Shown here piece after piece: positions 43,336-49,499 of a stretch of DNA of 64,000 nucleotides (position 1 is its first letter; every line of letters begins with the position of its first letter). Origin of the DNA: Luteibacter aegosomatis (GTDB taxonomy: Bacteria; Pseudomonadota; Gammaproteobacteria; Xanthomonadales; Rhodanobacteraceae). A model generated the notes under the pieces. It had not been told where the DNA came from. It was given only the letters and a program-made list of their open reading frames with translations, and searched no databases. Where the stretch lies: positions 2,654,001 to 2,718,000 of the forward strand of contig NZ_CP095740.1 in the NCBI RefSeq assembly GCF_023078455.1. Reading direction: 5' to 3'. Position numbers and translations under genes: made by a program.

Positions 43336-43428
43336 CCCATGCCCTTGAGTCCTTCCGGGCAGAAGGTCCTGACCGCTGCACGGCATGTTTGAGCGCATGG
43401 AGGAAAGCAAGACAGAGATCGGGTAGGT

Positions 43429-43512
43429 GAGCGAGGAGGTGTCCGGCAAAATGATGCGATTCCACACTGCCTGCGCGCGGCTCTGTCCACAGGCCTGGCT
43501 GTTGTACTTGCT
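43429..43512 (-). pseudogene. Fragment of conjugal transfer gene trbI
   Basis: A 28-codon stretch on the minus strand translates as SKYNSQ followed by GQSRAQAVWNRIILPD and TSSL. This matches the core of TrbI/VirB10 proteins, where GKYDSQVxFGQSR...VWNRIILPD(T/G)SS is conserved. Sequence on both sides does not continue the protein. It is a relic of a conjugative element; its length is short, so the match rests on 16 or so consecutive conserved residues. Confidence 0.55.
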
Positions 43513-43609
43513 GGGGGCCGGTTCTGCACGGTGGCCGGGGCGGCCGGCTGTGCCACCGTCGAGGCCGGTCCGGCGGCCTGCGGGTCGAAGACTCCCTGAG
43601 TCTTTCGGG

Positions 43610-43738
43610 GTTGGCTAAGTGCCGAAGCAAAATCAATGGAGTTCCGCTCTGCACCCCAATAGTGCGGTACGTAAAGTGAGTACCATCTGCTTCAACAAAT
43701 TGCGTCTTAGCGGCTCCAGTTTTGGTCCGCTGCCGCAA
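43610..43738 (-). pseudogene. Alpha/beta hydrolase N-terminal remnant
   Basis: About 43 codons read KTQFVEADGTHFTYRTIG and then SGTPLILLRHL, which is the opening of alpha/beta hydrolases of the kind starting TxFVEVNGTRFAYRRFG...GVPLVFLQHF. After HLAN the frame runs into low-complexity sequence with no hydrolase signature. It is a broken remnant without a catalytic serine. Confidence 0.5.
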
Positions 43739-43880
43739 TCGCAGATGCGGAAATCAACGTAGAAGTCGGCAACATAAAAGTTACGATAATCTTTTTATAG
43801 ATATATTCTCAGAAAATTCAATCATTAATCTTGGCATTTACTATCTAACATGGGTTATAAAATCACCGACATGCGTCTCA
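43739..43880. other. AT-rich gap without a gene
   Basis: A run of 142 bases, much richer in A and T than the chromosome, with no reading frame of interest. It may hold the end signal of the flanking TetR gene. I see nothing else in it. Confidence 0.4.
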
Positions 43881-46515: not shown

Positions 46516-46861
46516 GGCATAACCTCACTTATTTGGAAACTCATGGCTGATTTAGCACCCCGCCCAATGAGCATCATTGACGTATGATCGTACTTCTACA
46601 TTACGATCATAATTTATAGGTCAGGCAGATGCAAGCGCTGGGCATCTGCAGGGACATAGAGACGCGAGACCGGCACTTGGAAGACGGCGAGAAGGCGTTG
46701 AACTGAGCGTGCCATTTCGCGCCAGCAGGACACGAAGACTAGGGTTCCCGAAGCACCTCCATCCCTCGTTCGAGGGCCCAGCCGCGGATACATGGCTGAT
46801 TCCCGACTCCTCGATATGACTATCGCCGCCGTACCTGTTGATGGGACGCTGCACACGAGTG
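46516..46861. other. Gene-free stretch before the dehydrogenase remnant
   Basis: About 345 bases with no convincing gene on either strand. The sequence contains only short overlapping frames without recognisable motifs. The last part may be the ruined N-terminal region of the dehydrogenase that follows. Confidence 0.45.
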
Positions 46862-47411
46862 CTTTTTGGCGCAGGCGATTTAGTCAGCGGACAATCGGCA
46901 CTGATTCATTCGGGAGCGGGTGCACCAGGATGGGCCACGGTCCAGTTGGCCCATCGTGCCGGAGCTATCGTGTATGCCACCACGTCAGATGACGCACGCC
47001 TCTCGCGCCCGAAGCCCTATGGCATGACGGCCGGAATAAATTCAGTCACAAATGATTTTGTGAAAGAGATTGCGGCACTGACGGATGGCCGAGGCGTAGA
47101 CCTTATTCTCGACAGCATCGCCAGGCGCTGGCATATAGAAGGCGGATTATTACGGTTGGAGTTTCTGGCCGAAACCAGGACACGCTCGACCCGGTAAGCA
47201 TTTGGCGAGGAATCAGAGCCTGCATGGCATCTTCTTTCCTACGCTGTTGGACTCTGAGCACGCTCGTACGTGCAGAGTTTATTGGAGCGTGTTGCGAGGG
47301 GGGGAGCTGAAAGTTTTGATTGATAAGAAATTTCGATTGCACGAAGCCTAAGCCTCACATGCCTACGTGATGTTCAGACAGGCCGTTGGCCGAGTAGTTA
47401 TGTACCCGTGA
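46862..47411 (+). pseudogene. Zinc-type/quinone oxidoreductase pseudogene, two frameshifts and a stop
   Basis: Frame one reads LFGAGDLVSGQSALIHSGAGA and SVTNDFVKEIAALTDGRGVD, the cofactor domain of an MDR quinone reductase. Near 47143 the match jumps to frame three (IITVGVSGRNQDTLDPVSIWR) and near 47209 to frame two (SLHGIFFPTLLDSEHAR, GGELKVLIDKKFRLHEA), where TAA at 47349 interrupts before SHAYVMFRQAVGRVVMYP and TGA at 47409. The N-terminal GroES half is missing. Clearly decayed. Confidence 0.75.
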
Positions 47412-47942
47412 ACGTACGCGCAATGGAAAGCGCGAACACTATCGAGCAATACGTTCGAACCCGGTCGCGTCACCGTACCTTTAGCAGGCGCTCGCCATAG
47501 CGAAGTTCGATCGAGGGATGTACGACGTGGTGAAGATCTTCTCCCCCGACGCCGTGACCCAACGATGGCTGACTCGCGACGGTCACGACGTGCAATTCGG
47601 AGGGTCGTAAGAGGCTAGTATCCGACGCACTCGACTTCGAGAACGGCGGTGCTTATCTTGAGATTGCGCAGTGCTGTGTCGATAAGCATCGACATCTTTT
47701 TTTCTGTTTCGGGACGGCTTTTACCGTCAGCGGCCAAGAGACCTGCTGATGCCAGGAAAGCCGCGTAACACGGTTTCCGAGGAGACCTTTACCCTCGAAG
47801 ACGGGTTTGATCTGAATAGCGAACGGGACGGTCTTAATCAGGCCTCCAGTCTTAACGCCAGTTCCACCGCCTGTTCCACTGGCCGACGATAGCCACCACG
47901 ACGTATGTCATTTTAAATCAATAGTCCCCGAAGGACCTGATT
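47412..47942. other. Gene-free stretch next to guaA
   Basis: About 530 bases with no gene that I can support. The longest run on the plus strand, near 47.50 kb, encodes MYDVVKIFSPDAVTQRW as part of about 40 codons, which I cannot assign. A poly-T run lies near 47.70 kb. This is probably island debris. Confidence 0.45.
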
Positions 47943-49499
47943 TCACTCCCACTCGATCGTCGCGGGCGGCTTTCCCGAAATGTCATAAACAACACGAGAA
48001 ATACCACGCAACTCGTTAATAATACGAGTCGAACACTTGTCGAGGAAGTCGTAAGGCAAGTGCGCCCAGTGCGCCGTCATGAAGTCGATGGTCTCGACGG
48101 CACGCAACGCGATCACCCATTCGTAGGCGCGTCCGTCGCCGACCACGCCCACCGAGCGCACCGGCAGGAACACGGCGAAGGCCTGGCTCACGCGGTCGTA
48201 CAGCCCGTGGGCACGAAGTTCTTCGATGAAGATCGCATCGGCGCGCTGGAGCAGGTCGACGTATTCCGCCTTGACCTCGCCCAGCACGCGCACGCCCAGG
48301 CCGGGACCCGGGAACGGGTGCCGGTAGACCATCTCGCGCGGCAGGCCGAGTTCGACGCCGATGCGGCGGACCTCGTCCTTGAACAGCTCGCGCAAGGGTT
48401 CGACGAGCTTGAGCTTCATGTGCTCCGGCAGGCCGCCGACGTTGTGGTGGCTCTTGATGACGTGGGCCTTGCCCGTCTTGCTGCCGGCGGACTCGATGAC
48501 GTCCGGGTAGATCGTGCCCTGGGCAAGCCACTTCACGCCTTCGAGCTTGGCCGACTCCTCGTCGAACACCTCGACGAACAGGCGGCCGATGACCTTGCGC
48601 TTGGCTTCCGGGTCTTCCACGCCGGCCAGGGCGTCGAAGAAGCGCTGCTTCGCGTCCACACGGATGACGTTGACGCCCATGTGCTCGGCCATGGTGGCCA
48701 TCACCTGGTCGCCTTCCTGGTAGCGCAGGAGGCCGGTGTCGACGAAGACGCAGGTGAGCTGGTCGCCGATGGCCTTTTCCAGCAGCGCGGCGACCACGGA
48801 GGAATCCACGCCGCCGCTCAAGCCCAGCAGCACACGGTCGCTGCCGACCTGATCACGGACGCGCTCGACGGCGTCCTCGATGATGTGGGCGGCATCCCAC
48901 AGTGTGGCCGAGCCGCAGAGGTCGACGACGAAGCGGCGGAGCAGTTCCATGCCCTTCTTCGTGTGGGTGACCTCGGGATGGAACTGCAGGCCGTAGAAGC
49001 GGCGCTCATCGTCGGCCATGGCGGCCAGCGGCAGGCTGGGCGTGGAGGCCGTCGGACGGAAGCCGTCGGGCAGCGCGGTGACGCGATCGCCGTGCGACAT
49101 CCACACGCCGAGCGATTCGCCGTCGGCCATCACGCTGTCGAATAGGCCGCAACTGGCGAAGGTGACCGTCGCCGGGCCGAATTCGCGATGGTGACCAGCC
49201 TCGACTTTGCCGCCGAGCTGCTCGGACATGGTCTGCATGCCGTAGCAGATGCCCAGTACCGGCACGCCCAACTCGAACACGACCTGCGGGGCGCGCGGCG
49301 AATCCACCTCGGTGACCGACTCGGGACCGCCGGACAGGATGACGCCGCGCGGCGCGAAGGCCGGGATGTCCTCGGGCGCGTGATCCCAGGCCCAGACTTC
49401 GCAGTAGACGCCGATCTCGCGGATGCGGCGGGCGATCAGCTGCGTGTACTGCGAGCCGAAGTCGAGGATGAGGATCTTGTCGCTGTGGAGGTCGGTCAT
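47943..49499 (-). CDS. guaA: GMP synthase (glutamine-hydrolysing)
   Basis: A 518-residue enzyme converting XMP to GMP. The glutaminase half has Cys in [15 protein letters not shown] and His in QFHPEVTHT; the ATP pyrophosphatase half has the PP-loop LSGGVDSSV, and [12 protein letters not shown] marks the dimerisation domain, ending KPPATIEWE. Start [10 protein letters not shown] at 49499. Codons from about 48030 to the stop (ATT ATT, TCT, GTT GTT TAT) contrast with the GC-rich rest, as if the 3' end came from an inserted element. It follows guaB on the same strand. Confidence 0.96.

Follow-up and report, generated by a model that had tools for sequence, protein, structure and literature searches.

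A probable relic of a guaA-targeting integrative and conjugative element in Luteibacter aegosomatis, beside a separate block of AT-rich codons in guaA

The window examined here, 64,000 nucleotides of Luteibacter aegosomatis (contig NZ_CP095740.1, positions 2654001-2718000 of a 4.76-Mb single-contig chromosome), contains guaA, the gene of GMP synthase, and beside its 3' end a low-GC island at 43336-47942 that is very probably what is left of an integrative and conjugative element (ICE) inserted by a P4-type integrase. The closest named guaA among those found is that of Luteibacter sp. OK325 (92% protein identity). As an initial annotation of this DNA had stated, the island ends at guaA, which terminates at the island edge. 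The island also stands out in GC content: 53.3% as opposed to 67.6% at 1-16130, 64.4% at 16665-43335 and 66.4% at 47943-64000, while the GC content of third codon positions (GC3) is 0.40-0.58 in the three open genes of the island and 0.89 in guaA. The features discussed below are as follows (G and L numbers are our handles for genomes and for loci or records, respectively).

47943-49514, minus strand: guaA (GMP synthase), the insertion target
47943-47957, minus strand: attachment core ATCGAGTGGGAGTGA, the last 15 bases of guaA, with second copies downstream in relatives
47690-47942, minus strand: integrase leader of the element, 253 bp, beginning at the guaA stop and lacking about 30 bases near its start when compared with relatives
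47657-47689, minus strand: probable remnant of a tyrosine integrase of the P4 type, its initial 11 codons (MLIDTALRNLK), from alignment with relatives
43426-43589, minus strand: two colinear trbI scraps with an internal deletion between them (tblastn with TrbI of G264 and of G259)
43881-44450, minus strand: TetR-type regulator, 189 amino acids, open (PF00440, E 3e-8)
44518-45009, minus strand: DUF302 protein, 163 amino acids, open (PF03625, E 2e-7)
45061-46515, minus strand: amidase, 484 amino acids, open (PF01425, E 2e-99)
46838-47197, plus strand: zinc-binding dehydrogenase scrap (PF00107, E 9e-12)
47982-48023, minus strand: codons -27 to -14 of guaA, a synonymous AT-rich cassette that does not belong to the element

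The end of the island that adjoins guaA consists of a leader and an integrase start (47657-47942), which the initial annotation had missed when it proposed looking for an integrase; only 11 codons of the gene are left. We searched 127 family genomes with the first 337 bases 3' of the guaA of G003. Some part of this query was matched in 22 genomes; in 13 of these (our own genome not counted) the match spans 119-199 bases and lies directly 3' of the guaA stop without exception, and a shorter match in G212 (96 bases) likewise follows guaA. Over the first 380 alignment columns the leader of the window is 75-84% identical to 12 of the 13 leaders in other genera of the family, 71% to that of G003 and 51% to that of G411, the last two being themselves cut short. 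Integrase frames of 428-476 amino acids (stop to stop) follow the leader in G353, G259, G264 and G401 among the frames listed, the one in G401 running to the end of the stretch read, while the integrases of G338 and G053 break off early. Since leaders or integrases are truncated in G411, G003, G338 and G053, decay is common at this spot. The integrase beside guaA is reduced to leader and 11 codons here and is open in relatives, where it was tested against Pfam in G264 only (PF00589 and PF13356). It is the leader, rather than an integrase remnant too short for significance on its own, that carries the argument for an element. When eight integrase candidates of our own genome were compared with the 10 kb after guaA in named loci, five matches were obtained, and those in L018 and L019 adjoin guaA. 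As a side observation, a Vibrio alginolyticus plasmid (pL29, L282) carries guaA sequence followed past its 3' end by what looks by eye like an integrase frame, and in two Acinetobacter plasmids (L283, L284) a guaA-end fragment adjoins an IS91-like ISVsa3 transposase.

The attachment core can be placed at the last 15 bases of guaA because second copies of it exist in related genomes. We searched for the guaA end in 14 genomes, i.e. 12 of the 13 leader genomes (all except G411), G272 and G003, and in six of them the core ATCGAGTGGGARTGA recurs 2.7-77 kb downstream, on the contig and strand of guaA. Exact copies (ATGATCGAGTGGGARTGA) lie 2.7 kb away in G111, 6.3 kb in G338, 35.8 kb in G264 and 76.8 kb in G422; those of G333 (9.7 kb) and G259 (50 kb) deviate by one base. 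A conserved distal arm precedes the second copy in G111, G338, G264 and G422, and also in a copy on another contig of G302; the arm has a diverged form in G259 and is different in G333. No second copy was found in G353, G082, G194 and G003, and the second matches in G401 and G053 look unrelated. Sites with three mismatches within the window look like chance. The location of the core agrees with the GAGTGGGA site given in passages of two papers (PMC9376610, PMC7775301). In G272 (L227) the core and the start of the leader stand at a place other than guaA, which could be a tandem, secondary-site or excised form.

At the far side of the island lie the two pieces of trbI that the initial annotation had reported as one scrap. 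The first (43589-43518) corresponds to residues 180-203 of the TrbI of G264 (83% identity) and the second (43509-43426) to residues 283-311 (86%). The 36-kb element of G264 encodes, besides its integrase, TrbB (PF00437), TrbE, TrbL and TrbI-type proteins; its trbI is found 1.8 kb before the distal core, and the scraps of the window match it in strand and relative position. In G003, too, guaA is followed by the leader, and both trbI pieces recur 5.8 kb past guaA on its strand. No other protein of at least 100 amino acids from the elements of G264, G338, G111, G333, G259 and G353 matches 43336-47942 (E 0.001). A functional ICE has a complete integrase and type IV secretion genes; here only the two trbI scraps were matched, and the stretch next to guaA is a remnant and not an ICE. 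A second element with trb genes is present in the same chromosome at about 1.66-1.72 Mb (L286-L289, about 1660000-1718000). Identity to the G264 proteins is 82-95% for its TrbB, TrbE and TrbI but only 26% for its integrase, and the trbI scraps of the window match its trbI too.

Between the two ends there is cargo of foreign origin. The TetR, DUF302 and amidase genes are intact, as first described, and among the genes that had been called broken the zinc-binding dehydrogenase scrap is borne out by Pfam; the supposed hydrolase (43271-43738) has no Pfam match at E 0.01. The amidase, DUF302 and TetR genes recur in this order on a Caballeronia plasmid (72% identity), beside a Tn3-family transposase, and therefore the trio travels elsewhere too. 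Some part of the island is matched at 80-90% by 59 of 137 plasmid records, and the segment 46560-47670, searched alone against plasmid records, gave zero matches. Rfam returned two matches only over 46000-50500 (E 0.22 and 0.35), both under the gathering score. Just beyond the left edge of the island there is a short-chain dehydrogenase frame with one in-frame stop (42391-43335, plus strand).

The surroundings of guaA are highly variable in the genus. We used 23 Luteibacter genomes including our own, 22 of them with a usable guaA (G011 has a fragment only), and compared about 20 kb of downstream DNA in 20 other genomes and about 60 kb in seven of these; G014 was left out, as its contig ends. 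The first kilobase after guaA has no same-strand match longer than 150 bases elsewhere in 13 of 21 genomes, ours included. The distance from guaA to a core anchor (window 17296-18411) is 3.4 kb in G012 and 50 kb in G005; in G015 and G003 some 59 kb were searched without finding it, and it was likewise not detected in G010 and G016, whose next anchors stand at 2.0 and 8.7 kb, respectively. Beyond the anchor lies a deaminase gene (16131-16664), presumably tadA. The element is only the guaA-proximal part of a variable zone that extends from about 19.6 to 47.9 kb of the window. When 43336-47950 was compared with whole genomes, two of the 22 other genus genomes matched: G014 shares the leader, and G003 both the leader and trbI. 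What lies between these two features has no match in the 22 genomes at E 1e-5. Elsewhere in the zone, 34562-40811 is shared with G015 in three pieces (88-92%), possibly another mobile block or a retained part of the hotspot.

The codons near the end of guaA need to be discussed separately. The AT-rich codons noticed earlier (ATT ATT, TCT, GTT GTT TAT) are indeed present at 47982-48023, but they are not the very end of the gene. In the 22 usable Luteibacter genes, codons -27 to -14 read mostly ATT ATC AAT GAG TTG CGN GGN ATT TCT CGN GTN GTT TAT GAC, where GTT and TAT are found in 22 of 22, each of two ATT codons in 21 and TCT in 20, and CGN, GGN and GTN vary. Scored on five codons, 17 of these genes have all five, four have four and one has three. 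In our own guaA the block has a GC3 of 0.29, compared with 0.91 for the body, 0.88 for the part upstream of the block and 0.83 for the tail (codons -13 to -2). Other stretches of guaA are equally little varied, yet they have GC-ending codons. Six of the 12 conserved AT-ending codons of guaA fall within the 14 codons of the block, a density equalled in 1 of 20000 shuffles; in guaB, taken as a control, the seven conserved AT-ending codons are all GAA, with at most two in any 14 codons. The block is eroded (GC3 0.57) in G003 (L098) and G014 (L096), which are also the only two other genus genomes with the leader of the element. In our own genome the AT-rich tip has no second copy within three mismatches. 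The tip motif (at most one mismatch) occurs in 105 of 398 genomes of the order, ours included, and never twice in one genome; a class-wide search (at most two mismatches) found it in 19 of 369 genomes, ours and 18 scattered others. A phage source was considered and rejected: two viral contigs match the tip, one with a host guaA end and the other at a non-guaA place that we take to be chance, and phage records yield short matches only. Among 24 viral contigs with a guaA end, six hold just 115-132 bases of guaA before the contig ends, which would fit an attachment core near the stop codon.

A broader view is obtained from the order Lysobacterales. We gathered 96 guaA ends and scored 90, leaving out L030 and L226 (by choice), L146 (short), L148 (lacking the end) and the duplicates L150 and L219; three or more of the five codons were counted as the AT state. 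The scores were five in 48 ends, four in 11, three in two, one in four and zero in 25. The AT state was found in 7 of 29 named records, 22 of 22 genus loci, 27 of 27 motif-picked loci and 5 of 12 leader loci, and as the sampling was partly by motif and genus, the 61 AT against 29 GC ends are not a frequency. On a quick tree of the guaA body without the last 60 codons, the state changes at least eight times, and five of the changes are forced by well-supported branches. We scored the copies against the consensus of integration host factor (IHF). It is present exactly in 46 of 61 AT-state copies and in none of the 29 GC-state copies, a figure with some circularity, as two of the scored codons influence the match; it is absent from 124,200 bases of guaA bodies, and the copy in the window has one mismatch. 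IHF alone cannot explain the block, since in lineages whose codon -23 is ATA or ATC the consensus is absent while the rest of the block is retained. We speculate that the cassette, found in the guaA of many Lysobacterales about 24-66 bases upstream of the core, might be preserved as DNA, as a protein-binding site in frame. One half, WATCAANNNNTTR, would be of IHF type and RTTTCTCGNGTNGTTTATGA would be the other half; gained and lost as a unit, the site would help integration or excision at guaA or serve a host process. This suggestion is tentative and we consider it possible rather than probable. A sigma-70 promoter, a dif-like site and an RNA stem were judged by eye and none seemed to fit all lineages, and selection for slow codons was set aside because ATC is kept at -26 and GAG at -24. 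The literature was searched for guaA in connection with attachment sites, with synonymous codons and with IHF, and the matches listed contained nothing on a codon cassette.

How are these observations best explained? The decayed integrative element that was first proposed for the 3' hotspot of guaA is well supported: the leader and integrase start stand at guaA and the trbI scraps at the far side, in the strand and order seen in G264 and G003. In our reading an ICE would have inserted at the last 15 bases of guaA by means of its P4-type tyrosine integrase and would then have decayed through deletions that removed the distal attachment site, the bulk of the integrase and almost every transfer gene. 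The attachment core, the leader with 11 integrase codons and the two trbI scraps would be left over, with the amidase, DUF302 and TetR genes and the dehydrogenase scrap as foreign cargo between the ends. The two ends, with their order and strand, and the lack of a second core are observed; that the ends and the cargo came with a single element, and how the losses followed one another, we infer. Several points weigh against such a history. The recognisable DNA amounts to only 286 bases at one end and 164 at the other, and the integrase remnant alone is not significant by tblastn (E 0.18). The duplicate guaA end that the initial annotation expected is missing, as our genome has no second core within two mismatches except an unrelated site 2 Mb away, and the distal arm of the guaA family is not found in it either (best E 0.12); the missing direct repeat at the far end is consistent with decay. 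The cargo, matchless in the other genus genomes, may have come separately, its trio of genes being found on plasmids, and the trbI scrap could stem from another insertion because the genome has a second trb-bearing element. Another reading is that unrelated pieces gathered singly in the guaA hotspot and that leader and trbI scrap come from different elements. The range of the zone between guaA and the core anchor (3.4 kb to more than 59 kb), the 13 of 21 genomes without a shared first kilobase and the second element of the same kind all speak for it, but the integrase end and the trbI scrap keep the strand and order of G264 and G003, and we consider it unlikely. That the AT-rich stretch is native DNA of odd composition with no insertion at all is hardly conceivable. 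It is true that in none of the 23 genus genomes does the contig of guaA have a PF00589 match closer to the gene than 100 kb (the nearest, in G020, is at 116 kb), with contigs ending within that distance in several cases (G011, G014, G016, G022); but remnants of integrase and trbI are present, G003 and G014 alone match 43336-47950, and only in leader and trbI scraps, and the same genes after guaA, looked for in the 22 other genomes, are not there.

The initial annotation had further suggested that the incoming element replaced the last 80 or so bases of guaA with its own AT-rich version, and here we come to a different view. Integration into genes normally can replace the 3' end of the gene, and the AT-rich codons do adjoin an AT-rich island. 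Yet the block is present in 22 of 22 usable Luteibacter genes whatever follows them, genomes without the island included; the core spans just the last 15 bases, so that the block lies upstream of it; and codons -13 to -2 of our guaA show normal GC3. Across the family the same integrase end follows an AT-state guaA in 6 of 13 genomes and a GC-state guaA in 7 of 13. Six pairs that differ in state were compared, not all of them sisters and with L215 in two of the first three. In these three the change is confined largely to the block: L215 and L021 differ at 10 of 14 block codons and 1 of 12 tail codons, L215 and L151 at 11 and 0, L020 and L217 at 11 and 2. In the other three the tail differs too (L015/L033, 8 and 5; L013/L027, 11 and 6; L214/L084, 7 and 4), and the serine at -12 has changed its codon type (TCN or AGY) in 4 of 22 Luteibacter genes, the most among 16 conserved serines, which speaks for some tail exchange as well. 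On balance a replacement of the guaA end by this element is very improbable; the AT-rich codons predate the insertion and are a separate matter.

It is useful to compare the remnant with known systems, as far as these are described in passages of the papers cited. The guaA 3' end is an established insertion target, as the initial annotation had held (PMC7775301, PMC9376610): guaA-associated genomic islands with P4-type integrases were reported by Song et al. 2012 (as cited in PMC7775301), an alpA regulator near the integrase is a feature of such islands (PMC7775301), and integrase-dependent excision and integration at guaA was demonstrated experimentally for GIsul2 (PMC9376610). Here too, in keeping with the mark of these islands, the element sits at the 3' end of guaA and its core includes GAGTGGGA. 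With the guaA islands and ICERspD18B (PMC7775301) our element shares this target and core and, in the fuller members, conjugation genes; to the P4-type integrase that those islands have beside guaA would correspond the leader and 11 codons here. Unlike ICERspD18B-type islands the copy in the window has lost most of the integrase, the transfer genes and the distal repeat, and it is related to elements of Lysobacterales, the majority of which have their own conserved distal arm. The target and the GAGTGGGA site are shared with GIsul2 (PMC9376610) too, but no sul2 or CR2 was seen among the genes here and the copy in the window cannot code for an integrase. In Stenotrophomonas maltophilia a diverse defence island, #13, lies between guaA and pgrR (PMC11680222). 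It resembles our case in being a hotspot beside guaA, and three related elements carry defence-type genes: Gabija GajAB in the 6.3-kb element of G338 (L263, 2571-6143), a type IIG restriction enzyme in G333 (L265, 5766-8549) and an E1-E2/JAB protein in G264 (L261, 5111-7357). Unlike island #13, the scanned genes of the window are metabolic, regulatory, transport or acetyltransferase genes, in a scan that was not aimed at defence systems. The element in the window is a degraded member of the known guaA islands, the GIsul2 and ICERspD18B class.

The gene guaA is thus a hotspot for P4-integrase elements in Luteibacter and in its family too, and both ends of the element family are now defined. A separate pattern is that of AT-rich synonymous codons that hardly vary in a core gene of these GC-rich bacteria and are switched as a block. 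If the cassette is a DNA site, the coding end of guaA would double as part of the docking region of mobile elements or as a host control site.

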